Source: Flavobacteriaceae bacterium
Lineage (GTDB): Bacteria > Bacteroidota > Bacteroidia > Flavobacteriales > Flavobacteriaceae
Direction of reading: 5' to 3'
DNA length: 64,000 nucleotides
NCBI GenBank assembly: GCA_002707025.1
Contig: PALG01000015.1
Span: forward strand, 1-64,000
The notes below the pieces were generated by a model. The model ran no database searches. It had not been told where the DNA came from and worked only from the letters and a program-made list of their open reading frames with translations. The position numbers and the translations under genes are program-made. Positions 4,820 to 17,449 of this stretch are shown in pieces; position 1 is the first letter of the stretch, and each line of letters begins with the position of its first letter.

Positions 4820-7800
4820 TTAACGAATCATGATTTTCTTTACCTGTTTTGTAGTATCGGTTTCAATTAGTAAGGTATAGAGACCAGACGGTAAGTCTGG
4901 GAGGGTTATTTCCCTAACATTGCCAGTGTCCCGTGTTTGTGACTCTAAAACCTTCCTGCCTAAAGGATCCAATAAATGTAACTGTGCTTCCCCGGTAATC
5001 CCAGTTAAGAATATATTTTTTTGAGTAGGGTTGGGGAATACTTTAATTTCTGAAAAAGAAGCAGAGGAAGTGCCTAAAACGCTTTCCGGTTCAAATAGTA
5101 ATTGGAAGCGATCGGGGAAGTTTCCGGGGCCACTTTCAAATCCGTAGGCTTCATCGGTAAGCAGGGTCAATTCATTTAAATACCTATCGAAAAGATAGAT
5201 GGTGGTGTTCGACAACAGATCACTATCGATGTTGGATAGGGATATTTTATAGGAAGTGACCTCGTTCAATAAAGAGGAAAATCCTATGGGAATCATGATA
5301 CTTTCTTCAAATAGTTCCCGAGATTGAATGCCCAGTTCCACTTGTTCCCCTTCGATACCGGAATAGATGGAAAGTACGGTTGCCAAGCGGTTACTATCAT
5401 AGCCCGCATCGATTCCTTCCGTAGTAATTTCTGAAAAGCCAATTAAACAATTACTTTGAAGGGGGTAGGCTGTACTCTGTATTTTAAGCCATATACGGTC
5501 CTTATTAAGCGGATTTCTTAGGGTGGTATTGCCCGAGGTGAGTCGCATGCTATTATTAAAAACAGCCGTTCCAGCCCCAGTAGCCTTAATTCCGAATCCT
5601 TGCCCGGTAGCGATGACCCCATTAGGTTGTGTATCGATTCCGGAAGGGTCTGCTGCGGCAGCTGTACCTCCCATGAGGTTATACATGGAAATATCTTCCA
5701 TGCTAAAGTTCATGCTTCCAGCTCCAGGAAGGGAAGGGCTGGGAGGGGTAAGGTGTTCCCAGAAATATACTTCGTTGAACAACGTATTGGCGGTTAAAAA
5801 TGCATCGGCGTCCAGAGCAGAAGCATACGGGTTTGCCAATACATTGGGACTCGCATTACGATTGTCTGCGGGAGTTGGGCCGGGAGTGTTGTAGAGAATT
5901 GAAAAATGGACCATCCCATTATTTAGAGTCCCCAGTTGGTGTGTCATCGTGAAAATTCCTCCAGGCTGTCCATATCCAGCCTGTGGCCTTACAATATACC
6001 CTTCTCCTGGATTGATGGAACCACTATATGGATTCCAATTGTCGTAATTATCATCGGCAAAGTTTTCAGCCATCGGGAATTGTATGGCTACATCGGGATT
6101 GGGCACAAAGTTAAGGGTGTTGTGATTTAACACTAGGAAAGCACTTGCAAAAACATCGTTTCTAGTTTCGGCGGTCATGGGACTTCCCATTACCATAAAA
6201 TCCCGCGAGGCCAAGTCTGGCGTAATGACTTCCACTTGAATGGTTCCTGTTTTTATGACCTGGGCAAAATCGTATTCCTGTACCACACTTCCTTGATGGG
6301 CTATAAATAAGTTTCCGTTTACAGTGATGTTGTTGGCAGAAAAAAGGTAATCGTTGGCTGCTATGGTTAGGTTACCGGAGGCATCCACTTCGCAGGTACA
6401 GGTGTTGATGGATCCTTCTGAGGCAGTATCATACAAACCTGTAATAATCGCATTGCTTCCCGCATTGGGTGCTCCGTTATCCCAAACCCCTCCCGTATAG
6501 GTGGTGTCTGTTCCCAAAACGGTCACTGTAGCAGAAGCATTGGCGCTGTTACCCGCTTCATCGGTAACGGTAAGGGTAACGGTATTATCCCCTATATCTG
6601 CACAACTAAAGGAGGTAACATCCAACATGTATGCTAAGTTGGCTGGGGTAGAGACATTATCTGTGGTTCCATTATCAATTTGTGCAGGGGTGATAGACAC
6701 ATTCCCCGTAGGATCTAGATAAACAGTGATGTCCTGTGTTACTACGGTTGGCGGAGCGATATCTGTTTTTTGGATAATGGTGAGCACTAATTGATTGGGG
6801 TTGGTGGAACAATCGGTGCTGAATTCATATTCAATTCCGTTGTGTACGGGGGTGTTGGGTGCCAATAAATTACAAGTGGTAATGGTACCGGTGGTGGTGG
6901 CTACGGTAAAGGTATCATTGATAAACCCTTCAAACCCCATGGAAATATTTACGTTACCTTCCAGGATGGCATTTCCGGTAATAGCCAGTACATCGTATTC
7001 GGTACTCGGGGTATAGCCGTTAAGTTCTACATCCAATACAGAGGAAGCAGTAGATTCAAAATCCCCAATGATCGAAAGTGTTCCGGGAGACGCACCAGGG
7101 GCAAAGGTTCCGTTGTTGACAAAATCTGCTGGTGCAGGAAGGTCTATGGTTCCTATTCCTTTGATGATTCCTGATGCAGTGTTATTTAGGGTATTTGGAC
7201 CACTAAATAGAAGGGTTCCAGAGGCTACCTCAATCGTTCCGGTATTGGTGGTCTCTACATACAAATTTGAGGCATTGGTTCCTGCAGTTTTGATTAATAC
7301 TCCTGCATTATTGAAAATATGGGAAGTTCCTCCCGAAAAGCTAAAGTCCCCAAAGTTATCTTGAAAATCGATGGTCCCCGTAGCTTGGTTGTTCAGCACC
7401 CCTTGGGTGATGAATAAATCGCCGTTGCTCGCAATATTGATGATGCCTTCATTATTAAAAGTAGTATCTCCAATAATGGATTTTGTTACAGAGCTAGTTA
7501 AATTCATGACCCCAAGATTGGTTAAATTACCCCCGCCCGTTAAAATACTAGCGGTCCAGTTTACCCCCACTGTTCCCGAAAAATCGAAGGTAGCAGAAGT
7601 ACCCGGTGCTACGGTTACTTGATTGCCCCAAGTAATGGGTCCGTCGAGGGTTCCCGTTAAGGTTCCTTCGCAGGTTATCGGGCCGTTCCAAAAGAAGTTG
7701 GCCCCTGGAAGCACATTGTAGACTCCATCTGTTAGATTCTTATTAAGTGCTTGCAATCTAAGTTCGCTGGTTTCTACGTTGATCGTTCCCGTATTGTTGA

Positions 7801-9499
7801 GCACTACATCAATTATGGCATACCCTGTTGGTGTGGCATTTCGAAGGGTTCCCATATTGTTAAAGTCGTGTAGACTTCCACCCGAATAGCTGATGTTCCC
7901 GAAAGCTGCTTCCAAGGAAACGGTTCCGCCCATTAGGTTGTTTAGGATACCATCAGTAATAAACAAATCGCCAGCATCTGTAATTTGTAAGGTCCCGGTA
8001 TTATTGATTGTGGTGTTATCCAATATTGATTTGCTAGCGGTACTTGTGAGATTCAAGTTGCTTAGATTGACCAAGGTTCCACCTCCTCGAAGGTTGCTGG
8101 AGCTCCATAAAACCTGGGAAGCCCCCGAAAAATTGAAGGTAGCTGTCGTAGCAGGAGCAATAAACACTTCACCACGCCAGTCAATAGGGCCTTCCAAGAG
8201 TCCGGTAAGAGTACCAGAACAGTTAATGGGCCCTGCCCATTCCAATTCTGCTGCAGCTGCCACATTGTAAACCCCTCCTGTTAAATTTTTAGCAAGACCC
8301 AATAAACGTAAAGTACCACTTTCCACACTAATGGTTCCTGTATTGTTTACCACTGCATAAATATTGGCTATTCCTGTGGTGGTACTTCTTCTGATGAGTC
8401 CTGCGTTATTAAGAATTTGGGAAGATCCTCCAGAATAACTAATTTCACTAGCGTTAGCTTGAATATCTATAACCCCGCTAGATTGGTTGTTTACAATACC
8501 ATCGTTAATATTAAAATCCCCTCCATTTTGCAGGGTCATGGTCCCTTCATTATTTAGGGTTGTGGTTCCTATAACGCTCTTTGTTCCGGCGGTAGTTAAA
8601 TTTAAAACACTTTGGTTGATAAGGGTTCCGCCTCCTGTAAGATTACTGCTGGTCCATTGCACTCCAGTACTTCCGGAAAAATTAAATATGGCGGTGGTTG
8701 CTGGGGCTACGGTAAGAATGTTGTTCCATTCCAAAGCCCCATCTAACGTTCCTGTAAGCATTCCCGAGCAGGTTGTGGGTCCGTTTATTTGAAGTTTTGC
8801 ACCAGCGGCAACATGGTAGGTTCCCCCTATGAAATTCTTATTCAAACTTTGAAGGCGAAATTCACCACTTTGTACGTTAAGGGTTCCCGTATTGTTTAAC
8901 TCTGCGTAGAATACAAAAATACTTGAGCTTTGAATAAGCCCGGCATTATTCAGGATATGAGAACCTGCACCGGAGTAGCTAATATCGCTAAAAAGGCCTT
9001 GTACGTCTATGATCCCTGAGGTTTGGTTATTCACCACTCCGTCATTAATATATAGGTCCCCTCCAGATTGAAGGATTAGGGTGCCTTCATTATTAAGTGT
9101 GGTAAATCCTATAATGGATTTTGTTCCGGCTCCAATAAGGGTTAAGGTCCCTTGGTTGGTGAGTGTTCCCCCGCCAGTTAAATTATTGCTGTTCCAATTA
9201 ATAGTAGAATTGGAGCCAAAACTAGAAGCTCCTGCGATGGAAAGCTGATTGCTCCAATTAAAAACGGAAGTCCCTTGCACCTGTAATGAATTGATGGTAG
9301 CGCCCACGTTGAGATTCACGGTAAATCCGGTAGGTATGACCGCATCATGGGCCGCTGTAGGCACTATCCCAAGACTCCAGTTGCCCGAGGTATTCCAATT
9401 GTTGTTTACAGCTCCTGTCCAAGTATTGGTTTGTGCTTTTGCAAAGCTTATTAGAGCAAAGAAAAAAAAGCAATTTAGAAGTAATTTTTTTGTGATCAT
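4820..9499 (-). CDS. Large T9SS-secreted repeat adhesin-like protein
   Basis: 1559 aa. A Sec signal peptide (LLLNCFFFFALISFAKAQ) precedes a WxGxxxxxW-type start (TWTGAVNNNWNTSGNWSLG). About four repeats of ~181 residues follow (NLTGGGTL at ~105, ~285, ~468; a diverged copy at ~651), each made of beta-strand-like NNxG(T/I) rungs, as in beta-helix adhesins. A HYR-like domain lies near residues 910-1000 (APPTVVTQDITVYLD; VTDEAGNSA). The C-terminal ~80 residues (VFPNPTQKNIFLTG ... GLYTLLIETD) are a type A T9SS sorting domain. The product should be exported and attached to the surface or released. Upstream lies a copy of the shared ECF-type promoter (9519-9545), which links it to the sigma operon. 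Ligand unknown. Confidence 0.85.
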   Translation of the reverse strand: MITKKLLLNCFFFFALISFAKAQTNTWTGAVNNNWNTSGNWSLGIVPTAAHDAVIPTGFTVNLNVGATINSLQVQGTSVFNWSNQLSIAGASSFGSNSTINWNSNNLTGGGTLTNQGTLTLIGAGTKSIIGFTTLNNEGTLILQSGGDLYINDGVVNNQTSGIIDVQGLFSDISYSGAGSHILNNAGLIQSSSIFVFYAELNNTGTLNVQSGEFRLQSLNKNFIGGTYHVAAGAKLQINGPTTCSGMLTGTLDGALEWNNILTVAPATTAIFNFSGSTGVQWTSSNLTGGGTLINQSVLNLTTAGTKSVIGTTTLNNEGTMTLQNGGDFNINDGIVNNQSSGVIDIQANASEISYSGGSSQILNNAGLIRRSTTTGIANIYAVVNNTGTISVESGTLRLLGLAKNLTGGVYNVAAAAELEWAGPINCSGTLTGLLEGPIDWRGEVFIAPATTATFNFSGASQVLWSSSNLRGGGTLVNLSNLNLTSTASKSILDNTTINNTGTLQITDAGDLFITDGILNNLMGGTVSLEAAFGNISYSGGSLHDFNNMGTLRNATPTGYAIIDVVLNNTGTINVETSELRLQALNKNLTDGVYNVLPGANFFWNGPITCEGTLTGTLDGPITWGNQVTVAPGTSATFDFSGTVGVNWTASILTGGGNLTNLGVMNLTSSVTKSIIGDTTFNNEGIINIASNGDLFITQGVLNNQATGTIDFQDNFGDFSFSGGTSHIFNNAGVLIKTAGTNASNLYVETTNTGTIEVASGTLLFSGPNTLNNTASGIIKGIGTIDLPAPADFVNNGTFAPGASPGTLSIIGDFESTASSVLDVELNGYTPSTEYDVLAITGNAILEGNVNISMGFEGFINDTFTVATTTGTITTCNLLAPNTPVHNGIEYEFSTDCSTNPNQLVLTIIQKTDIAPPTVVTQDITVYLDPTGNVSITPAQIDNGTTDNVSTPANLAYMLDVTSFSCADIGDNTVTLTVTDEAGNSANASATVTVLGTDTTYTGGVWDNGAPNAGSNAIITGLYDTASEGSINTCTCEVDASGNLTIAANDYLFSANNITVNGNLFIAHQGSVVQEYDFAQVIKTGTIQVEVITPDLASRDFMVMGSPMTAETRNDVFASAFLVLNHNTLNFVPNPDVAIQFPMAENFADDNYDNWNPYSGSINPGEGYIVRPQAGYGQPGGIFTMTHQLGTLNNGMVHFSILYNTPGPTPADNRNASPNVLANPYASALDADAFLTANTLFNEVYFWEHLTPPSPSLPGAGSMNFSMEDISMYNLMGGTAAAADPSGIDTQPNGVIATGQGFGIKATGAGTAVFNNSMRLTSGNTTLRNPLNKDRIWLKIQSTAYPLQSNCLIGFSEITTEGIDAGYDSNRLATVLSIYSGIEGEQVELGIQSRELFEESIMIPIGFSSLLNEVTSYKISLSNIDSDLLSNTTIYLFDRYLNELTLLTDEAYGFESGPGNFPDRFQLLFEPESVLGTSSASFSEIKVFPNPTQKNIFLTGITGEAQLHLLDPLGRKVLESQTRDTGNVREITLPDLPSGLYTLLIETDTTKQVKKIMIR

Positions 9500-9518
9500 T
9501 GGTTGAGGTTTTTCTTTA

Positions 9519-9545
9519 CATCGATAGGGTAAAGAAATGTCATCA
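9519..9545 (-). promoter_or_regulatory. Predicted ECF sigma promoter, copy A (adhesin)
   Basis: On the minus strand TGATGACATT (9545-9536), 12 nt, CGATG (9523-9519), then 19 nt to the ATG at 9499. The same two words at exactly the same spacing occur upstream of three other units nearby. Confidence 0.75.
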
Positions 9546-9553
9546 CCTAAAAA

Positions 9554-12500
9554 TTAGAATTTTTTGCGAAGCAGGAGCCACAACAGAAATAAAAAGATGG
9601 CTATGCCTATCCACCAAAGAAAAGAAACCGAAGTATCTATAGGAATGGGTGCAGTATCTCCCATTAAAACCAGGCCTGCCCAATATTGGGGTGCCAAACT
9701 CCTGCCTTTGGCTTGAGCTAAATAGGTGATTTTTGCTTGTTGAAGTGCCTCATCCTTAGAAAGCCCTTTCTGTAGATTTTCGTAAAAAAGACTTACTATT
9801 TCAGCACTGGATTTCTCGTCTATTTCCCAAAGGCTGGTTAAAATACTCTCGCTTCCTGCATAAGTAAAAGCATGTGCTAAGCTTATCATTCCTTCCCCTG
9901 GTTGGTAACCTGGTTTTCCAGTTTCACAAGCGGTAAGCACGGCTAAATCGGCATTGATATTGTAATTGTAAATTTCGTAGGTGTATAGATAATTGTTTTG
10001 ATTGTCCAAGCTATCCACTTGTTTGGCAAAAACCAATCGGGAAAGTTCGGGGCTCACGTTGTTGGATTCGGCATGGGTACCTATATGGATGATTTTGTAT
10101 TCGGAAGCTTGATTAAGGAACACCTGCTTTGAAGCACCTTCGTTGTAAAAGGCTTTCCCTTTAAAAGTGTTCTCCGATTTTTTAATAAGATGAGCACTGA
10201 ATGGCTGTGGAAGAAGGGTGAGGTAGGTTTGATCGGTATTGGAAGAATCGGCTAGGGCCATTTGGTAACGCTCTTTCATCTCTGAAGAAAATGCCGGCGC
10301 AAAGCCTATATAATTTTCTTTGAAATACCGTGGCTGATCCTGAGAGCCTGTGAGATACAAGCTAAAATTGTAAGAAAAAACATGCTCTTTTAAAAGGCTA
10401 TGTGCCTGAAAATCCTCAAAATCGTTAATAGGTTGTTTTGTGAGCATTTCAAAACTAAGATTGTACAGCGGGCCATCGGGGAACACTACTACCTTTTTGG
10501 TGTTCACAAAGGGCTGAAGGGGTTTCCATAGAATTCGGTATAGTTCAAAAAGATTTGCACCTTGTTCTGAAGCATGTAACCGGTTTTTCTCCAATTGGGA
10601 AATATGTTCCTTCAGTTTCCCTTGCTCTAAAGGGACTATCCTTTTGTGTTGTTTTGTAAGAATGATGGCATAAAGTTTTTCAGAAATGGTAAGATACCTT
10701 ACCCACGTAGTTTCGGGAGCAATATTTGAAGTATACTGCAATGGAACCGATAATAATGAAGCATACCGAAGTTGAAAATAGTCGGGTTGTTGTACCTGTA
10801 GTTTCTTTAAAAAATCGTTCCACTCATGATTTAGCTGAAGAAATTTCCCCAAACTTTTTTCATCGTTACTATCTAGCGAATAGGATAAGGCTTTTCGTAG
10901 TTGACTTTCCTCTTTAAGAATAGCCTCTGGCACTTTAGCAAATTTAATATTGTCCCGAAGGTTGAGGCGGGCCCTAATACGGTTATAGATACTGGATTCA
11001 TGAAGATGTAAGATGCTATCTAGATACTCATCGTTCTCCGTAATGCCATAAAGTTTGTAATTGAGTTCTTTTGCTAAGTCTATTAATTCGGCATTTTGGG
11101 CAATAAGTGATTGTGTGTCTTGGTAATTTTTAATGAATGTATTCCGAAGTTCCAGTAACTGTAGTCCCTTTTGAACTTCTTCAAAGAGCTGTTTTAGTAA
11201 TTCCTTATCGGTATTGGGTTGTTGGGCCAATGTAGATTTTACATATAAGAGGATTGCCCTAGGAATATTTAAGGTTTTTACTACATCGTCGGTACTTGCC
11301 ACATTGTTTAAGTTGAGGGTTGGGGATTTGTCTAGGATTTCCTTACAAATATGCTGCGTCTCCCCGTAGTCTTTCAACAAGTAATAGGTTTCAGCCAAGG
11401 CCATTTGGTATTGTAACTGCAACGGTGTTCCATACACTCCTTCCCTTTGGGATTCTTTGTAAATATTCTTTACAATTTTAAGTGCCTTTTCAGGATAATT
11501 GTTTTTGGCATAAAAAAGAGCCATATCCTGAAAGTTGTTTATAACATCGGTGTTGTACTTACCCTCTAAAGCATCGTAATAAGTGGCTTCCGATTTTTGA
11601 TATAACTGGACCGCTTTTTCCTTTTCATTAAAAAAGTCGTGTATCTTGGCCCTAGCGGCGAAAGCACTTCCCCTCCAATAAGAATCCAAACCCTGTGATT
11701 CTTCCAATTGCAACAAGACCTCATCCATGAGTTTTTCGGCCCCTTTCATGTCTTGGGTGTTAAACTTGGCTTGGGTCAATAAAATTTTTGAAATGATGAC
11801 GTTGGGGTCGTTTTTGCTTTTGTCTTTTAGCTTTTGTTGATAGCTGTAGTTGACCAATTGTTCTGCTTTTTGGAACTCTCCTATGGTGTTGTAAAAAACC
11901 CCCAGATTGTCGATAGCCATACCCTTACTGGTTTTAGCAGCATTTATTCTTTGTTCATCTACGGAGACTTCCATAAATTGATTGAATTTTTGAATGGCTT
12001 CTTCAGAATAGGCAATGGCTTCTTCATTTCTACCCAATAGGTTAGATACTACGGCCATATTCATGCGTACCAATCCGGGGCGATAATAATCATTAGAAGG
12101 GTTGCTTTCGGTCTTTTTTAAGGCTTCCAAAGACTTTTCAAAATAATAATTGCAACTGTCCATTTGCCCTTTCCGCCACATGACTCCTCCTAGGGCGTTG
12201 TATACCTGTTGGAAGGTAACGTAATCTGGAGGGTTCGCTTTTTGGTAATATCCCAAGCTTTCTTCGTAATAATTTTTAGCGCTGGTATAATCACCTTTAG
12301 CAGAAGAATAATACCCCATATTATAAATGATATCGGAGATTTGAGGCGCTTTATCTGCCGTACCTTTTTTGGCCGCTTTCAGTGCTTTTTCCAACGAAAG
12401 AAGCGAAAGATCTGGTCTTCCCGCTTCATCTTGAATCCAGGCCAATTCCTTGTAGGCATATTTGGTGACATCTGGGCGATCTAGTTGTACCAATTCTTCT

Positions 12501-12787
12501 ACAAAATGATCTGCTTTCTGTAGGGCAAGCTCCCAATTATTATTATTAAGAGAGTAGCTTCCTATAAACTCGACATATCTGGAAAGACTGTCCCAGTTTT
12601 TTTGTGCTTTAAGTGTCGCTACTTGGGACTGAAGTTGATTTTTTGCTTCGTTAAGCTGTTGATTGGCAATTAACTGACGTATTTTTGGGATTCCTTGAAG
12701 GGAGTCCCCTTCTTGCGAATATACAAGGAAGCTATTTAAGAAAAGAATGATACTTAAGTACCATGAAAAGGATTTATGGCTTTTCAT
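9554..12787 (-). CDS. TPR-CHAT domain protein, predicted caspase-like cysteine protease
   Basis: 1077 aa. N-terminal signal peptide (YLSIILFLNSFLVYSQ), then a long alpha-helical tetratricopeptide array (roughly residues 30-500), a helical linker, and a C-terminal CHAT domain (about 730-1040). The CHAT His-Cys dyad is present: His905 in HIGTHAES and Cys954 in VLTACETGKPG, followed by the conserved SLAHAFTYAGS and SLWEID segments. One transmembrane helix (WWIGIAIFLFLLWLLL) and a basic tail (RKKF) end the protein, so TPR and protease domains should face the periplasm. It overlaps the TPR membrane protein gene by 14 nt and is the third gene of the sigma operon. Inference: it senses or cleaves something in that signalling pathway. 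Confidence 0.85.
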   Translation of the reverse strand: MKSHKSFSWYLSIILFLNSFLVYSQEGDSLQGIPKIRQLIANQQLNEAKNQLQSQVATLKAQKNWDSLSRYVEFIGSYSLNNNNWELALQKADHFVEELVQLDRPDVTKYAYKELAWIQDEAGRPDLSLLSLEKALKAAKKGTADKAPQISDIIYNMGYYSSAKGDYTSAKNYYEESLGYYQKANPPDYVTFQQVYNALGGVMWRKGQMDSCNYYFEKSLEALKKTESNPSNDYYRPGLVRMNMAVVSNLLGRNEEAIAYSEEAIQKFNQFMEVSVDEQRINAAKTSKGMAIDNLGVFYNTIGEFQKAEQLVNYSYQQKLKDKSKNDPNVIISKILLTQAKFNTQDMKGAEKLMDEVLLQLEESQGLDSYWRGSAFAARAKIHDFFNEKEKAVQLYQKSEATYYDALEGKYNTDVINNFQDMALFYAKNNYPEKALKIVKNIYKESQREGVYGTPLQLQYQMALAETYYLLKDYGETQHICKEILDKSPTLNLNNVASTDDVVKTLNIPRAILLYVKSTLAQQPNTDKELLKQLFEEVQKGLQLLELRNTFIKNYQDTQSLIAQNAELIDLAKELNYKLYGITENDEYLDSILHLHESSIYNRIRARLNLRDNIKFAKVPEAILKEESQLRKALSYSLDSNDEKSLGKFLQLNHEWNDFLKKLQVQQPDYFQLRYASLLSVPLQYTSNIAPETTWVRYLTISEKLYAIILTKQHKRIVPLEQGKLKEHISQLEKNRLHASEQGANLFELYRILWKPLQPFVNTKKVVVFPDGPLYNLSFEMLTKQPINDFEDFQAHSLLKEHVFSYNFSLYLTGSQDQPRYFKENYIGFAPAFSSEMKERYQMALADSSNTDQTYLTLLPQPFSAHLIKKSENTFKGKAFYNEGASKQVFLNQASEYKIIHIGTHAESNNVSPELSRLVFAKQVDSLDNQNNYLYTYEIYNYNINADLAVLTACETGKPGYQPGEGMISLAHAFTYAGSESILTSLWEIDEKSSAEIVSLFYENLQKGLSKDEALQQAKITYLAQAKGRSLAPQYWAGLVLMGDTAPIPIDTSVSFLWWIGIAIFLFLLWLLLRKKF

Positions 12788-13562
12788 AGAATTTCTTTAT
12801 TTCCTCTTGAAGGCGTTGGCTTTGCTTAGATGTGTTCTGTTTCAGTTTATCCAAGCTTTTTTGCCATTCATTGTTCTTTAAATACAGAAGCCCCAGATAG
12901 TAATTGGCATCTTCGTGAAACGAACTTTGCTGGTTATGGGATACCTCATTTAAAAATTTTAAAGCCTCCGAATCGTTTTCTAGAGCAGTATGTGCCACTC
13001 CTATAAAATATTGAAGGGTGTCGTTTTTCGGATTTTCTTTATGAAGGGCTTTCCAAGTTTGTAAGGCCTCTTGAAAATGACCTTGTTTATACCGAACCAT
13101 TCCCTCGTAAAAAGTATATTGCGAAGTGCTGCTCATGGTCGTAGGTAATCCAGCATCTTGAATGTAATACTTGTTGTACAGTTCTTCATTTTTAGGGGAT
13201 TTATTCAAAAACCAAAATAATCCAATAAAAAGGAATATTGAAGCCGCTACTCCATACCAAGCATAGTTCTTTTTCTTCTTTTTAATGAAAGTATTTGGGG
13301 TCTTTACTGCCGAATGGGTAGGTTGTACTTTGGAGTGGAAGGTTTCTAACTTATCTTTTAAAGCAGCAGCTTCCACACCAGCTATTAGGATACGAACTTC
13401 GTTGACTTTTTGTTGAAGGCTGCTATTAGAAGCAATTTCGCTTTCAAAAGCAGATTGTTCTTCCACATCCATAGAATGCGTAAGATAGCGTTCAATTTTT
13501 TCAAATTCCTGGGGTGATATGTTAGGTTCTTGTTTCAATAGTATTGATTTGGGTTTGGGCAA
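12774..13562 (-). CDS. Single-pass TPR membrane protein, candidate anti-sigma factor
   Basis: Up to 262 aa. A cytosolic N-terminal ~95 residues (ERYLTHSMDVEEQSAFESEI) resemble the helical sigma-binding part of anti-sigma factors. Next come a KKKKK stop-transfer, one transmembrane helix (YGVAASIFLFIGLFWFL) and a periplasmic TPR region (YEGMVRYKQGHFQEALQTW; YYLGLLYLKNNEWQKSLDKL). No ATG precedes residue 31. The likely start is TTG, either at 13562 or at 13538, overlapping the end of the sigma gene by 41 or 17 nt. Order (sigma, membrane protein), overlap and topology suggest an anti-sigma role; there is no recognisable ZAS zinc motif, so this is inference. Confidence 0.75.
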   Translation of the reverse strand: MPKPKSILLKQEPNISPQEFEKIERYLTHSMDVEEQSAFESEIASNSSLQQKVNEVRILIAGVEAAALKDKLETFHSKVQPTHSAVKTPNTFIKKKKKNYAWYGVAASIFLFIGLFWFLNKSPKNEELYNKYYIQDAGLPTTMSSTSQYTFYEGMVRYKQGHFQEALQTWKALHKENPKNDTLQYFIGVAHTALENDSEALKFLNEVSHNQQSSFHEDANYYLGLLYLKNNEWQKSLDKLKQNTSKQSQRLQEEIKKFYEKP

Positions 13563-14112
13563 TTTCTTTTAACTTTTGGAGGCATCGATACTTTTTGTTT
13601 TTGGCAGAAGCCTCTCCAATATTTAATTTTTCAGCAATCTCCCGTAAGGATGTCTTACTGAAATAAAACTCTTTTAAAATTTCTTGACAGGAGCTTCCAA
13701 GTTTCTTGAAAGCTTCCATGGTGCTTTTTATTTTTGCTTCATTTTCCAAAGCGGTGTTTTTTTCAATTTCCTCGAACGATTCGCTCATTGCTGAATCTTC
13801 ATCCCTAAGCAAATTTGTTTTTTTATAACGGGACGAACGTAAAAAATCCAGCCACTTGTTTTTTGCAATTTGATACAAATACCCTTGTAGGGCCGATTCA
13901 TTTTTCGGAATGAACTTATCCTGTTTTATATTTTGCCATAAGGTTATAAAGGCATCTTGGTACAGATCTTTTGCTTGGGGCATGGTTCCGTTGTTTTTTA
14001 GCACATAGGCTTCCACCTTTGTGTAATTATCTTGATACAGTTGTTTTAATACAGCTTCGTCGTTCAATTTAATTTTTGAAACGAGCGCTTGCTGGTTTAT
14101 GAATTTTGTCAT
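13522..14112 (-). CDS. ECF-type sigma-70 family RNA polymerase sigma factor
   Basis: 196 aa. Region 2 is residues ~20-90 (AKDLYQDAFITLWQNIKQ; LYQIAKNKWLDFLRS, the core-binding and -10 recognition helices). Region 4 is ~130-190 (SLREIAEKLNIGEASAKNKKYRCLQKL, a helix-turn-helix). Regions 1 and 3 are absent, as in ECF factors. First gene of an operon with the TPR membrane protein and the CHAT protein; all three overlap. The upstream region holds TGATGACATT-N12-CGATA in the correct orientation, so the factor probably activates its own transcription. The leader to the ATG would be about 60 nt. Confidence 0.92.
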   Translation of the reverse strand: MTKFINQQALVSKIKLNDEAVLKQLYQDNYTKVEAYVLKNNGTMPQAKDLYQDAFITLWQNIKQDKFIPKNESALQGYLYQIAKNKWLDFLRSSRYKKTNLLRDEDSAMSESFEEIEKNTALENEAKIKSTMEAFKKLGSSCQEILKEFYFSKTSLREIAEKLNIGEASAKNKKYRCLQKLKEIAQTQINTIETRT

Positions 14113-14178
14113 TGCCCCTCCAAAAGTAGATAGGGAAAGATAGTAAAATTCAAATTAACTACCTGTATTCTTTCTATA

Positions 14179-14205
14179 TATCGAAAGTTTTAAAAAATGT
14201 CATCA
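14179..14205 (-). promoter_or_regulatory. Predicted ECF sigma promoter, copy B (sigma gene, autoregulation)
   Basis: Minus strand TGATGACATT (14205-14196), 12 nt, CGATA (14183-14179). It lies back to back with copy C, and the two -35 words form an 11-bp inverted repeat (14195-14205 / 14216-14226). Confidence 0.75.
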
Positions 14206-14215
14206 ATACAATTTA

Positions 14216-14242
14216 TGATGACATTTAATTTTTTATTCGATG
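14216..14242 (+). promoter_or_regulatory. Predicted ECF sigma promoter, copy C (serine hydrolase)
   Basis: TGATGACATT (14216-14225), 12 nt, CGATG (14238-14242), then 28 nt to the ATG at 14271. Diverges from copy B across a 10-nt spacer. Confidence 0.75.
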
Positions 14243-14270
14243 GTAGGATATAACCATTTAAATAGACAGT

Positions 14271-16154
14271 ATGAAAACCTTAAAATTACTTATTCTTTCG
14301 CTTCTAACGGGTTGGATGTTAAATGCTCAAAATGGCATTCCAGTTCCTGGGATGACCTCTTGTGATGCTCAAATCCAATCTTTTATGAACACTTTCGATA
14401 TACCAAGTGTTACCATGGCGCTTGCAAAAGACGGTGAATTAAAATATATGCGTTCTTTTGGTTATGCAAATCTTGCTCAAAATGAAGAATCGCAACCGTA
14501 CCACATGTTTAGGATAGCAAGTATCTCAAAACCAATAACGGCCATAGGGATTATGAAAATGGTGGAAGACGGGACGATCGCATTAAACGATAAAGTGTTT
14601 GGTCCTGGGGCAATTTTGGAAAACCACTGGTATTTTTCCAATAGCTCTATAGTTGATACAGAAGTATACGATATTACCGTACAGCATTTATTGGAACATT
14701 CGGCTGGTTGGGATAGAAGTGTGAATTGTTTTCCAAATCCAACGGATCCTTACCCATGGTTTTTTTCTGGTTGCGACCCCATTGTAGCTCCTTTGCATGT
14801 TACTCAATCTCAAGGGCAATCCAATCCTGTAAAGGAGGAATTTTTAATTAATTATCTATTGGAAAAGAATTTAAATTTTTCACCAGGAACTTCATATAGT
14901 TATTCCAATATGGGGTACTTAGTGCTTAGCGAAATTATAGAGGAGGTTTCAGGAATGGATTATGAAGCATGGATGCAGCAGGAAATTTTTCATCCGCTAG
15001 GGATTTATGATATGTATATTGGTGAAAACCTTTTGGAAGATAAAAAAGAACGAGAAGGGGAGTATGTAGGAAATGGCTTTACAAACTTAGATTTGTATGG
15101 AAGTGGCAATACGGTGCCTTGGGAGTATGGTGGCTTTTCGGTGAATGCGATGGATGGTCATGGAGGATGGATTGCATCTGCTAGGGATATGGTAAGGCTA
15201 TTGGTAGCTGTTGACGGATTTCCTACCAAACCAGACATTTTAAGTCCGGCAACGATTACAAGCATGGTTACTCCTTCTACAAATAATGCCAATTATGCTA
15301 AAGGATGGTCGGTAAATAGCCTTAATAACTGGTGGCATACCGGGGCTATAGATGGAACTGCGAGTGTATGGGTACGATCCAATGGAGGCTATACTTGGGC
15401 CGTGGTGTTAAACAAAAGAGTGGTGGATAGTAATGCCACTGCCTTTTGGAATGCCTTGGACGGAATGGGATGGAATTGCATCTCCAGTACAGCAAACTTT
15501 CCCGATTTTGATTTGTTAGACGCTCCCACGGTGAATGCCAGTAATTTGAATGTTTCTGGAGACGAAGTAAGTTCTATGGACCTCTCTTGGACAAATGGAA
15601 ATGGAACCTCAAGGGTGGTAGTAATGAAGGATATCACCAATAGTACCGATGTTTATAATTTCAGTAGCTATCCAATTGACGGTATCGATTATACAGGAAA
15701 CAGCTCCTTTGGAAGTGGTGAAAACCTTGGAGATGATACCTTTGTGGTGTATAGCGGAAATAACAATCAGGTTACCGTGACTAACTTAGATCCTACCAAG
15801 CAATATGCCATGAGGGTATATGAGTATAGGAAAACGGCAACTAACGGCAATAATGCATTATACTTGTTAGGAAATCCTGCGGAAAGAGAAGCGTTTCTTA
15901 GTGTGGATGGCCATGAACTAGCTCAATTTGTGAAGGTAGCTCCAACCATAACGCAAAACTTTGTACACCTTGAAAACAATTATCCTGAAAGTCTACATTG
16001 TGAGGTATATGATGTAAGCGGAAGAAAATTAAATGCCTTGCAAGTTCCTATGGGAAAAAGTTCCATAAATTTTTCACCGTATCAAAATGGATTGTATGTA
16101 ATGATTTTCAAAAGCGGAAAAAATTCTTGGATCAAGAAAATCGTAAAAAAATAG
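14271..16154 (+). CDS. T9SS-secreted serine hydrolase, beta-lactamase/penicillin-binding fold
   Basis: 627 aa. Signal peptide (LLILSLLTGWMLNAQ), then a class C beta-lactamase-like domain at about residues 25-400. Its catalytic motifs are SISK (Ser84-Lys87), YSN (in YSYSNMGY, ~214) and HTG (in WWHTGAIDG, ~356). Residues ~410-540 form a fibronectin-III-like beta region (MDLSWTNGNGTSRVVVM), and the last ~70 residues are a T9SS sorting domain (VYDVSGRKLNALQ; NGLYVMIFKSG). The family includes D-aminopeptidases, esterases and DD-peptidases; the substrate is unknown. The T9SS tail and promoter copy C make it a likely exported effector of the sigma operon. Monocistronic, ended by the hairpin at 16181-16205. 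Confidence 0.88.
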   Translation: MKTLKLLILSLLTGWMLNAQNGIPVPGMTSCDAQIQSFMNTFDIPSVTMALAKDGELKYMRSFGYANLAQNEESQPYHMFRIASISKPITAIGIMKMVEDGTIALNDKVFGPGAILENHWYFSNSSIVDTEVYDITVQHLLEHSAGWDRSVNCFPNPTDPYPWFFSGCDPIVAPLHVTQSQGQSNPVKEEFLINYLLEKNLNFSPGTSYSYSNMGYLVLSEIIEEVSGMDYEAWMQQEIFHPLGIYDMYIGENLLEDKKEREGEYVGNGFTNLDLYGSGNTVPWEYGGFSVNAMDGHGGWIASARDMVRLLVAVDGFPTKPDILSPATITSMVTPSTNNANYAKGWSVNSLNNWWHTGAIDGTASVWVRSNGGYTWAVVLNKRVVDSNATAFWNALDGMGWNCISSTANFPDFDLLDAPTVNASNLNVSGDEVSSMDLSWTNGNGTSRVVVMKDITNSTDVYNFSSYPIDGIDYTGNSSFGSGENLGDDTFVVYSGNNNQVTVTNLDPTKQYAMRVYEYRKTATNGNNALYLLGNPAEREAFLSVDGHELAQFVKVAPTITQNFVHLENNYPESLHCEVYDVSGRKLNALQVPMGKSSINFSPYQNGLYVMIFKSGKNSWIKKIVKK

Positions 16155-16224: not shown

Positions 16225-17400
16225 CTATTGTTCTACGGCAAATTTGGTCCAGTTTTTTTCATTGACCCCTCTTTCGGTGTTTGGATTAAATAAAGCATTG
16301 TCGGTGCCAATATACATACCGTCGTTAGAGACCCAATAATAATTAGATCCCATTGGGACATTATAATGCTCTCCTGTTTCATGGTTGCCAATCATGGTGG
16401 TTTCATTAATTCCCCAAATGGTCTTGGAATGCCCTGCATCGTTTATATTGCTTCTGTTTAGGTATCCTTTATGGGAAATGTCCAGGATGTCGCTATAGGT
16501 ATCTCCTATGCTTTTATTGGTGGTGCCCGCCGCGGCTATCGCATTCATTCTTTGTTGATGAGCCACCGTGCTTTGCTTTGTGGCTTGCGCCCAAAACTGG
16601 TTGCTTTTTTGGATATCGTTGACTAGCTTTCCATTCATATATTGAATCCATTGCGGATTTAATTCCGCATTTGCATAAGAGTAGGTGTAAGCCCTAATTG
16701 CTTCGTCGAAATAAGAAGGTAGCGCTTCCATTTCGGTAGTTTGAATGGTCCAGTTGATAGTTTGGGATTTTGCCACATAAAAATTTACCATTAAGATAAA
16801 CGATTGGGTGCCGTTGGGTGTTTTCCATTCGGTTCCTAAAACTTCTACCCCTCTTTGGGAATTCGTGTAGGGCATGCCATTAAAAAGCCTTTGCCAAAAC
16901 CCAGCTACTTCCGGAAGCTCATAGCTTTTAATAAAGGAATACCCTTGTGCTTGGGCATTCGGTTTTAGTACTTGCTGTAAGATTTGCTGATTGCGCATCG
17001 GCGCTCCAACAGCCGTACCGCTCATTTGAAGTGTTTGTCGCATCATAGGATCGTTGCTCCAGGCATAACTTTCAGACTCCATTTTATATACTTTCAGTTC
17101 TTGAGGGCCTTCCATAAATATGGGAGCATTGATAGGGTTTACGGTCCAACTTTTTGGGAGGGGATAGCGAGCTTGCACCAAACCATTGTTGGGGTCAACA
17201 TAATGATAGTACTTTGTGGTTTCTACATTTTCCATAGAGGATTTTTGTAATGTGTTAATGGTTTCTTGGCTGTTGTTACTTTCGGAGATTATTTTTTCAG
17301 AATCGTTCTTAGGAAGATTATTTTTTTGACCATTACTGGAATTACACCCAAATAATGCCATACAAAAGCTTAGGTAGATTAATTTTCGGTATGTTTTCAT
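16225..17400 (-). CDS. Hypothetical lipoprotein, candidate member of the ECF regulon
   Basis: 391 aa. Lipoprotein signal peptide with lipobox LFGC (Cys19), then a Ser/Asn-rich linker. The central part (YHYVDPNNGLVQARYPLPKS ... WTIQTTEMEALPSYFDEAIR) looks like a globular domain of the kind that summarises protein use statistics in eukaryote-like DUFs, but I do not recognise it. The C-terminus has NETTMIGNHETGEHYNVP and YYWVSNDGMYIGTD, a beta-rich segment. No catalytic motif is evident. Its 5' region carries promoter copy D, which is the main clue to its role: co-expression with the adhesin, serine hydrolase and sigma operon. Confidence 0.75.
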   Translation of the reverse strand: MKTYRKLIYLSFCMALFGCNSSNGQKNNLPKNDSEKIISESNNSQETINTLQKSSMENVETTKYYHYVDPNNGLVQARYPLPKSWTVNPINAPIFMEGPQELKVYKMESESYAWSNDPMMRQTLQMSGTAVGAPMRNQQILQQVLKPNAQAQGYSFIKSYELPEVAGFWQRLFNGMPYTNSQRGVEVLGTEWKTPNGTQSFILMVNFYVAKSQTINWTIQTTEMEALPSYFDEAIRAYTYSYANAELNPQWIQYMNGKLVNDIQKSNQFWAQATKQSTVAHQQRMNAIAAAGTTNKSIGDTYSDILDISHKGYLNRSNINDAGHSKTIWGINETTMIGNHETGEHYNVPMGSNYYWVSNDGMYIGTDNALFNPNTERGVNEKNWTKFAVEQ

Positions 17401-17422
17401 AAATGAGATTGTTTATTATAAA

Positions 17423-17449
17423 CATCGAAAAAGCTGTGTAATGTCATCA
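17423..17449 (-). promoter_or_regulatory. Predicted ECF sigma promoter, copy D (lipoprotein)
   Basis: Minus strand TGATGACATT (17449-17440), 12 nt, CGATG (17427-17423), 22 nt before the ATG at 17400. Confidence 0.75.

Follow-up and report, generated by a model that had tools for sequence, protein, structure and literature searches.

An operon of three overlapping genes, which probably encodes an envelope-signalling switch, lies in a 64,000-nucleotide stretch of DNA from a Flavobacteriaceae bacterium (assembly GCA_002707025.1, contig PALG01000015.1, positions 1 to 64,000; hereafter the window). The genes, all on the minus strand, encode an extracytoplasmic function (ECF) sigma factor, a single-pass membrane protein with tetratricopeptide repeats (TPRs), which we call TPRm, and a TPR protein with a CHAT protease domain. 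The explanation that we favour, and consider likely to be right, is that the CHAT protein acts as the site-1 protease of a stalk in TPRm. That CHAT cuts TPRm had been suggested by the original prediction, made from the sequence alone, and the idea gains support from a stalk motif that resembles a cut site and co-varies with a position of the CHAT protease. The further suggestion that the sigma factor switches on proteins exported by the type IX secretion system (T9SS) gains support from a promoter-like element shared by the upstream regions of the sigma gene and of both flanking T9SS genes. The parts of the operon are as follows (lengths in amino acids, aa).

13522..14112, minus strand: ECF sigma factor, 196 aa, with regions 2 and 4 (Pfam, NCBIfam)
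12774..13562, minus strand: TPRm, single-pass and anti-sigma-like, with its start at TTG 13562 or, more likely, at TTG 13538
Parts of TPRm (predicted): cytosolic helices at residues ~17-78, membrane helix at 102-119, periplasmic TPRs at 146-260
13128..13157, minus strand: TPRm stalk motif DAGLPTTMSS, residues 136-145, with a proposed cut at Met143-Ser144
9554..12787, minus strand: TPR-CHAT protein, 1077 aa, with a signal-peptide-like start, TPRs and a CHAT domain at residues 748-1044
Parts of the TPR-CHAT protein: His905/Cys954 dyad and a C-terminal membrane anchor at 1056-1076 (predicted)

Gene calls, profile searches and structural models confirmed the arrangement described in the original prediction: overlapping genes for an ECF sigma factor, for a TPR protein that spans the membrane once and has an anti-sigma-like cytosolic end, and for a TPR-CHAT protein. 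The sigma protein matches Sigma70_r2 (E 5.7e-11, 42.5 bits against a cut-off of 24, Pfam) and TIGR02937 (E 1e-22, 80.6 bits against a cut-off of 42.9, NCBIfam), and its region 4 match falls slightly under the cut-off (22.9 versus 24.1 bits). The second TTG of TPRm (13538) is the start position of most orthologs; with this more likely start, the sigma and TPRm genes overlap by 17 nucleotides (nt), and with the first by 41 nt. The TPRm and CHAT genes overlap by 14 nt. The CHAT domain matches PF12770, which belongs to the clan CD peptidases, with an E-value of 1.6e-42 (146 bits against a cut-off of 24), and no other protein of the window genome does so. The intact His905/Cys954 dyad claimed earlier is present, and the membrane anchor claimed with it is predicted as a hydrophobic helix at the C-terminus.

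Conservation and predicted architecture of the trio

A CHAT relative (E 1e-10) was found in at least 86 of 199 genomes of the same family, a lower bound because three candidates per genome were scored. Flanking sequences were taken for 100 of the 130 other family matches, mostly the better-scoring ones. In 76 of the 101 family loci, counting that of the window, TPRm is encoded within four genes of a CHAT gene of 840 aa or more, and the sigma gene adjoins TPRm in every one of these. The trio occurs in three orientations, with the sigma-TPRm pair ahead of CHAT on one strand (24 loci), convergent (37 loci) or divergent (15 loci); the convergent and divergent orders are those of more distant paralogs. 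Within the named set, which comprises the best 80 of 196 relatives in the genome collection and corresponds to 79 loci, the pair is directly upstream of CHAT in 59 loci and within three genes of it in 5 more; one locus has a tandem CHAT and two lie at a contig edge. The synteny of the trio among relatives, proposed at the outset as a check, is therefore borne out in both sets, and because of this conservation a chance association of the three genes is implausible. At the level of the phylum, CHAT is present in 188 of 395 genomes, and the trio is close together in 11 of 40 sampled loci: the same family contributes 3 of 5, other families of the class 7 of 13 and the rest of the phylum 1 of 22, as judged with profiles built from family members, which distant TPRm proteins may escape. 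The single trio from elsewhere in the phylum has an unusual stalk.

Some loci depart from the common layout. Tandem CHAT genes follow one sigma-TPRm pair at L045, L156, L166 and L177. At L054 (G044), several stop codons break the CHAT gene, and the sigma and TPRm frames are still open. A fourth kind of CHAT locus (L111, L118, L121, L127 and L128) has a CHAT gene of about 865 aa in a row with genes of about 145, 328, 669, 149 and 210 aa, a divergent sigma gene in four of the five loci and no TPRm.

The catalytic dyad does not vary among orthologs, as the original prediction would have it: it is intact in all 171 paired, non-identical CHAT proteins, and each position is kept in 101 of 110 sequences when fragments and all CHAT-tagged frames are included. 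By simple hydropathy counts, as opposed to a trained predictor, 160 of the 170 CHAT proteins that are long enough have a signal-peptide-like start and 167 have a C-terminal membrane helix, followed by a net positive tail in 166 of the 167. The same counts place a membrane helix in all 171 paired TPRm proteins, with an excess of Lys and Arg on its N-terminal side in 156. The positive-inside rule then predicts a periplasmic location for the CHAT domain as well as for the TPRs of TPRm.

Both proteins were modelled with AlphaFold2 on alignments of named relatives, for which 60 of 64 TPRm and 45 of 79 CHAT proteins of the named loci were taken. The TPRm model (predicted local distance difference test [pLDDT] score 87.8, 61 aligned rows) has three N-terminal helices, a membrane helix at 102-119, a helix at 124-132, a loop at 133-145 and TPR helices at 146-260. 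The predicted single pass, with the N-terminus inside and a helical cytosolic domain, is what is expected of a membrane anti-sigma factor. Matches of TPRm proteins to anti-sigma profiles are weak (NF052375 in 30 and NF047528 in 20 of 61 members, E 0.01), and a Foldseek search with the model returned TPR and designed helical proteins and no anti-sigma factor among the 50 matches listed. Because 155 of the 171 TPRm proteins have no Cys within their first 80 residues, an anti-sigma fold of the zinc type is unlikely. A weak PADLOC match of TPRm to CARF_TM (E 0.0086) was set aside. Two further observations concern the anti-sigma part of TPRm. His76, which closes the third cytosolic helix, is the same in all 61 aligned proteins. 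In addition, a second gene (263 aa frame; G000:C32:104743-105048), whose contig carries no CHAT gene, matches this part weakly (E 1e-6).

The CHAT model (pLDDT 79.1, 46 rows) contains TPRs, a CHAT fold and a C-terminal helix at 1056-1076. In a second-look fold comparison, the best matches were chains of Csx29, the protease of the type III-E CRISPR Craspase (7y9x: Z 29.1, root-mean-square deviation [rmsd] 8.1 over 587 residues); the separase protease domain 5fby ranked after them (Z 23.8, rmsd 3.2 over 310 residues). At the sequence level, a profile of 26 Arg-type CHAT domains (a type defined below) finds Csx29 with an E-value of 1.2e-7, and 2 of 26 CHAT relatives match Peptidase_C50 at E 0.01. 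The top Foldseek matches of the model are two entries of DdvA (8RW5 and 8ROT), with TM-scores of 0.21-0.28 and an rmsd above 26; DdvA is absent from the 50 entries listed in the second-look comparison. Profile searches identified DdvA, a protein of 991 aa, as a CHAT-domain protein (E 0.0015 and 6e-5). PADLOC profiles gave no match for the CHAT or sigma protein at E 0.1.

Stalk motif and its co-variation with the CHAT protease

Every TPRm has a conserved segment between its membrane helix and its first TPR. In the clade of the window (75 pairs), this stalk reads D-x-G-[LM]-x-x-x-M-[SG]. Its residues D136, G138 and M143 are invariant in the 61 aligned TPRm rows, in which there are only 12 invariant columns overall, and sit in the modelled loop 133-145. 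In other clades, the stretch ends in Arg (84 pairs) or, less often, in Lys or once Gln (12 pairs), and the residue that follows is mostly Gly, Ser or Asp. From its sequence, the segment looks like a P1-P1' protease site in an exposed loop.

The residue at the end of the stalk co-varies with the CHAT protease. Across the 171 pairs, CHAT column 991 holds Asp in 84 of 84 proteins with an Arg stalk and Glu in 75 of 75 with a Met stalk; with a Lys or Gln stalk it holds Glu in 11 of 12 and Gly in the remaining one. Among the CHAT columns with gaps in no more than half of the rows, column 991 was the best for separating Arg from not-Arg stalks, explaining this label fully on its own, and column 952 came second; for a three-state label (Arg, Lys, Met), column 952 came first and column 991 second. 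Column 952, two residues before the catalytic Cys, holds Ser in 81 of 84 proteins with an Arg stalk, Asp in 11 of 12 with Lys or Gln and Thr in 75 of 75 with Met, and contributes no independent event beyond the two large clades. In some clan CD enzymes, the residue two positions before the catalytic Cys forms part of the S1 pocket.

To place these changes, we used a tree of 121 of the 171 rows (25 of the 75 Met rows), computed quickly under LG+G4 with columns 991 and 952 excluded. The stalk residue changes three times on this tree, at the Met clade, at a Lys/Gln clade of 11 and at L281, each change being forced by starred branches, and Asp991 is lost together with the stalk change in all three events. 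By a rough count, three changes of one column would coincide by chance with just these branches at a probability of 2e-6, or 9e-4 once 449 columns are allowed for.

Several choices define these counts. Identical CHAT sequences were counted once, and four phylum-level pairs (L220, L222, L231 and L233), whose stalk residue is not assignable, were left out. Six of 38 added loci yielded no pair; at L280, which is among these six, the length filter removed a short TPRm frame next to sigma. Labelling of the stalks was not blind: 133 labels of the first set were assigned by pattern, those of L059, L098, L099, L108, L123 and L251 were set by eye with the CHAT stretch already seen, and the 32 added labels were set by eye, with the stretch that holds column 991 visible for some loci.

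In an alignment with Csx29, column 991 lies within the segment after a conserved Trp, four residues before the position of separase D2151. According to an excerpt of PMC9729208, D2151 reads the P1 Arg and corresponds to Csx29 K670. We had considered column 991 to be the D2151 residue itself and rejected this, as the alignment puts D2151 at column 995. The Csx29 whose numbering fits the excerpted text of PMC9729208 has Ser666, not Asp, at the position of column 991, and Csx30, its substrate, is cut after Leu407, as cited in that text. We count this combination of a Ser and a cut after Leu, as far as these excerpts go, as an outside check that would agree with the pairing of Asp991 with Arg.

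Promoter-like element and predicted regulon

A promoter-like element was first spotted by eye as GATGACATTT-N10-14-TCGAT, which has three occurrences in the window, whereas 100 shuffles gave none. A count of gapped words upstream of sigma in 64 non-redundant loci, made without this pattern, gave the same element in 16 of the 64 loci (0-1 in three controls). An earlier pattern with another spacing had been discarded: it gave one site in 83 regions and missed the window site, and its spacing was wrong. In the form TGATGACA-N14-CGATGT, the element occurs upstream of sigma in 15 exact copies, and in 24 with at most three mismatches, in 83 regions, some genomes being present twice, where about 1 is expected. 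In many loci, the element precedes a homolog of the 391-aa lipoprotein gene listed below, and this homolog is often the gene ahead of sigma. The sites and the genes behind them in the window are as follows.

14178..14205, minus strand: promoter-like site TGATGACA-N14-CGATAT, 65 bp upstream of sigma
9518..9545, minus strand: promoter-like site, exact match, 18 bp upstream of the gene for the 1559-aa T9SS protein
14216..14243, plus strand: promoter-like site, one mismatch, 27 bp upstream of the divergent gene for the 627-aa T9SS serine hydrolase
17422..17449, minus strand: promoter-like site, exact match, 21 bp upstream of the gene for the 391-aa lipoprotein
4820..9499, minus strand: 1559-aa T9SS-exported protein (Por_Secre_tail), predicted regulon member
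14271..16154, plus strand: 627-aa beta-lactamase-family serine hydrolase with a T9SS tail, predicted regulon member
16225..17400, minus strand: 391-aa lipoprotein-like protein (lipobox LFGC, by eye; no Pfam match), predicted regulon member

The 3.05-Mb window genome has no further site with at most one mismatch, and all four lie at this locus. At the same threshold, the 79 named loci and the first 24 kb of the window, 80 loci together, yielded 120 sites, spread over 69 of the loci, compared to 1 for the reversed pattern. Most of the 120 sites (106) are outside open frames, 30 precede lipoprotein homologs, 17 precede sigma, and 15 have no gene start within 260 bases. Among other spacers, a version with 15 bases gave 17 sites, compared to 0, 1 and 0 for spacers of 12, 13 and 16 bases. 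In a comparison of genomes, 17 of 24 with a close CHAT relative carry exact sites, 36 in all, and none was found in 23 genomes (of 113 without a CHAT match). With one mismatch allowed, there are 94 sites (reversed control, 15) in genomes with a CHAT relative versus 18 (control, 14) in those without. We suggest that TGATGACA-N14-CGATGT is likely the promoter of this sigma factor.

Ten target proteins of other loci were scanned for domains. Six have known ones, which place them among T9SS subtilases, adhesin-like or FG-GAP proteins with a T9SS tail, and proteins with a YadA head or an endosialidase chaperone; the other four have none. Further targets have lipoprotein-like starts. Homologs of the 391-aa lipoprotein-like protein, which is the commonest named target of the element, occur in 38 of the 80 loci, frequently immediately upstream of the sigma gene, and the protein may serve the pathway as a sensor or an effector. 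In loci of other clades, the motif occurs once in 1.55 Mb (both strands). The regions upstream of sigma in the loci labelled class B may have a different promoter-like element, approximately TGTTAACCTTTT-N-ATTAA (up to 12 of 37 regions), and this difference from the element of the window clade hints that the sigma factor of each clade has its own promoter.

Proposed pathway, alternatives and related systems

We propose that the sigma factor is held at the inner membrane by the cytosolic N-terminal helices of TPRm, and that the TPR-CHAT protein is exported and tethered to the membrane through its C-terminal helix, leaving its CHAT domain in the periplasm. Activated by a signal that the TPR domains sense, the CHAT protease would cut TPRm in the exposed stalk between the membrane helix and the first TPR, in the window clade most likely after Met143 and before Ser or Gly. 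An RseP-like M50 protease, for which the window genome has one gene, would finish the remaining stub of TPRm and so free the sigma factor. The freed sigma would transcribe from TGATGACA-N14-CGATGT promoters its own operon (autoregulation) and the genes of T9SS-exported surface proteins and lipoproteins. If TPRm is cut after Met143, about 24 residues would remain past the membrane helix, fitting an M50 substrate. In RseA, the periplasmic first cut is made about 25-30 residues past the membrane helix.

Several results weigh against this pathway or parts of it. A sign test on the three co-variation events gives P = 0.25 and cannot reach significance with so few, and column 995, the equivalent of D2151, does not co-vary with the stalk. 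The register of the stalk between clades is uncertain, as the automatic alignment sets the Arg or Lys two residues past Met143, and the exact cut in the window clade is uncertain for this reason. The anti-sigma match of the window TPRm itself reaches 18 bits against a cut-off of 100, and a search of the PDB with a profile of its N-terminal domain returned, at E 1, weak matches to unrelated proteins and no anti-sigma factor. The best site in 59 of the 83 sigma upstream regions has four or more mismatches, so that the element is absent directly there. Finally, 25 of the 101 family loci have no TPRm-sigma pair near CHAT (they include fragments, the broken CHAT gene of L054, contig ends and a different CHAT cluster), and 12 of the 79 named loci, 11 of them from Aequorivita, have none within three genes.

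Other arrangements of the same three proteins must also be weighed. CHAT could be a periplasmic sensor that binds the stalk but leaves it uncut, the motif being a docking peptide in the active-site groove, and the sigma factor could be freed by a conformational change or by another protease. A stalk motif that is fixed in every clade looked at is as expected of a docking site, and DdvA, which has anti-sigma and CHAT parts in one chain, could work without cutting in trans. However, a pure scaffold would have no need of the dyad that is intact in all 171 proteins; Arg, Lys or Met before mostly Gly or Ser resembles P1-P1'; and the co-varying position falls in the segment that bears, four residues on, the P1-reading residue of separase. 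We regard a sensor of this kind as unlikely. Somewhat less likely still is that cutting of TPRm shuts off or tunes the pathway (for example, if TPRm is needed for sigma activity, as happens with some transmembrane regulators of sigma factors), or that CHAT mainly cuts other exported proteins. The direction of control could be of either sign, some Bacteroidota regulators act positively, and some loci have CHAT without the pair. On the other side stand the order of the genes (sigma, then its membrane partner), the short helical cytosolic domain with its weak anti-sigma profile matches and the precedent of Csx29 and Csx30, in which cutting is proposed to relieve inhibition (PMC10028731).

That the three genes share an operon yet act separately, with sigma controlled in some other way, seems to us very improbable. 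Co-occurrence is the only direct evidence that ties them together, but the association holds across three orientations of the genes and extends beyond the family, and the stalk co-varies with CHAT. We favour activation through cutting of the TPRm stalk by CHAT over these alternatives.

The closest known system is the signalling arm of Craspase, which resembles the trio in having a TPR-CHAT protease with a His-Cys dyad, a partner that inhibits the sigma factor by binding it (as predicted here for TPRm) and a sigma factor; its Csx29 is also the closest solved fold to the window CHAT by Z. PMC10028731 describes Csx29 as cutting Csx30 in a loop, between residues 427 and 429 in D. ishimotonii, and Csx30 as blocking CASP-sigma, a block that its authors take the cutting to relieve. 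Craspase is activated by RNA through Cas7-11 and is cytosolic, whereas the window protease, with its predicted signal-peptide-like start and C-terminal anchor, and the stalk are predicted to be periplasmic and membrane-anchored. In addition, the putative inhibitor of the window is a small single-pass TPR protein, unlike the Craspase partner. Seven neighbouring genes were scanned with Pfam and none is CRISPR-related, the rest of the genome not having been searched for Cas7-11.

DdvA (PDB 8ROT and 8RW5) resembles the trio in being, by its entry titles and profile match, a transmembrane anti-sigma factor with a CHAT domain, and differs from it in being one chain of 991 aa instead of two proteins. 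In Myxococcus xanthus, DdvS is an ECF sigma factor that is active once DdvA is inactivated, according to an excerpt of PMC4374960. Because DdvA unites both parts in one solved chain, we see it as a natural link, by analogy, between anti-sigma and CHAT activities. With the RseA-DegS-RseP pathway of sigma-E, the window system shares a single-pass (here putative) anti-sigma factor, a periplasmic first cut (here proposed) and an M50 protease in the genome; the proposed site-1 protease differs from the DegS-type serine protease in being of a separase-like cysteine type and encoded in the operon. Separase itself (peptidase C50) has the same fold and dyad as the window CHAT, which is bacterial and, by prediction, exported, membrane-anchored and endowed with clade-specific cut residues.

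For many of the numerous ECF sigma factors of Bacteroidota, the step that activates them is unknown. Anti-sigma factors under protease control and CHAT proteases are both established, as is their combination in CRISPR. We found no description of this trio in Bacteroidota in the literature, most subscription papers being outside the search; the widespread membrane version with a separate CHAT protease, the stalk cut code and the promoter element appear to be new. As a tentative conjecture, which we think somewhat more apt to fail than to hold, a large undescribed class of envelope ECF sigma pathways in Bacteroidia may rely on separase-like CHAT proteins as site-1 proteases. The cut code, which sets an Arg, Lys or Met in the stalk against CHAT positions 991 and 952, would then separate paralogous pathways in one cell, and the Craspase arm of Csx29, Csx30 and CASP-sigma would be a cytosolic offshoot of this older switch.

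If the proposed pathway is true, the protease family of the CRISPR Craspase, related to separase, would be a common envelope sensor, and its substrate, cut site and target promoter would be predicted and testable. The co-varying positions would tell what sets the cut specificity of a CHAT protease, and the trio would offer a plausible ancestor for the Craspase signalling arm.

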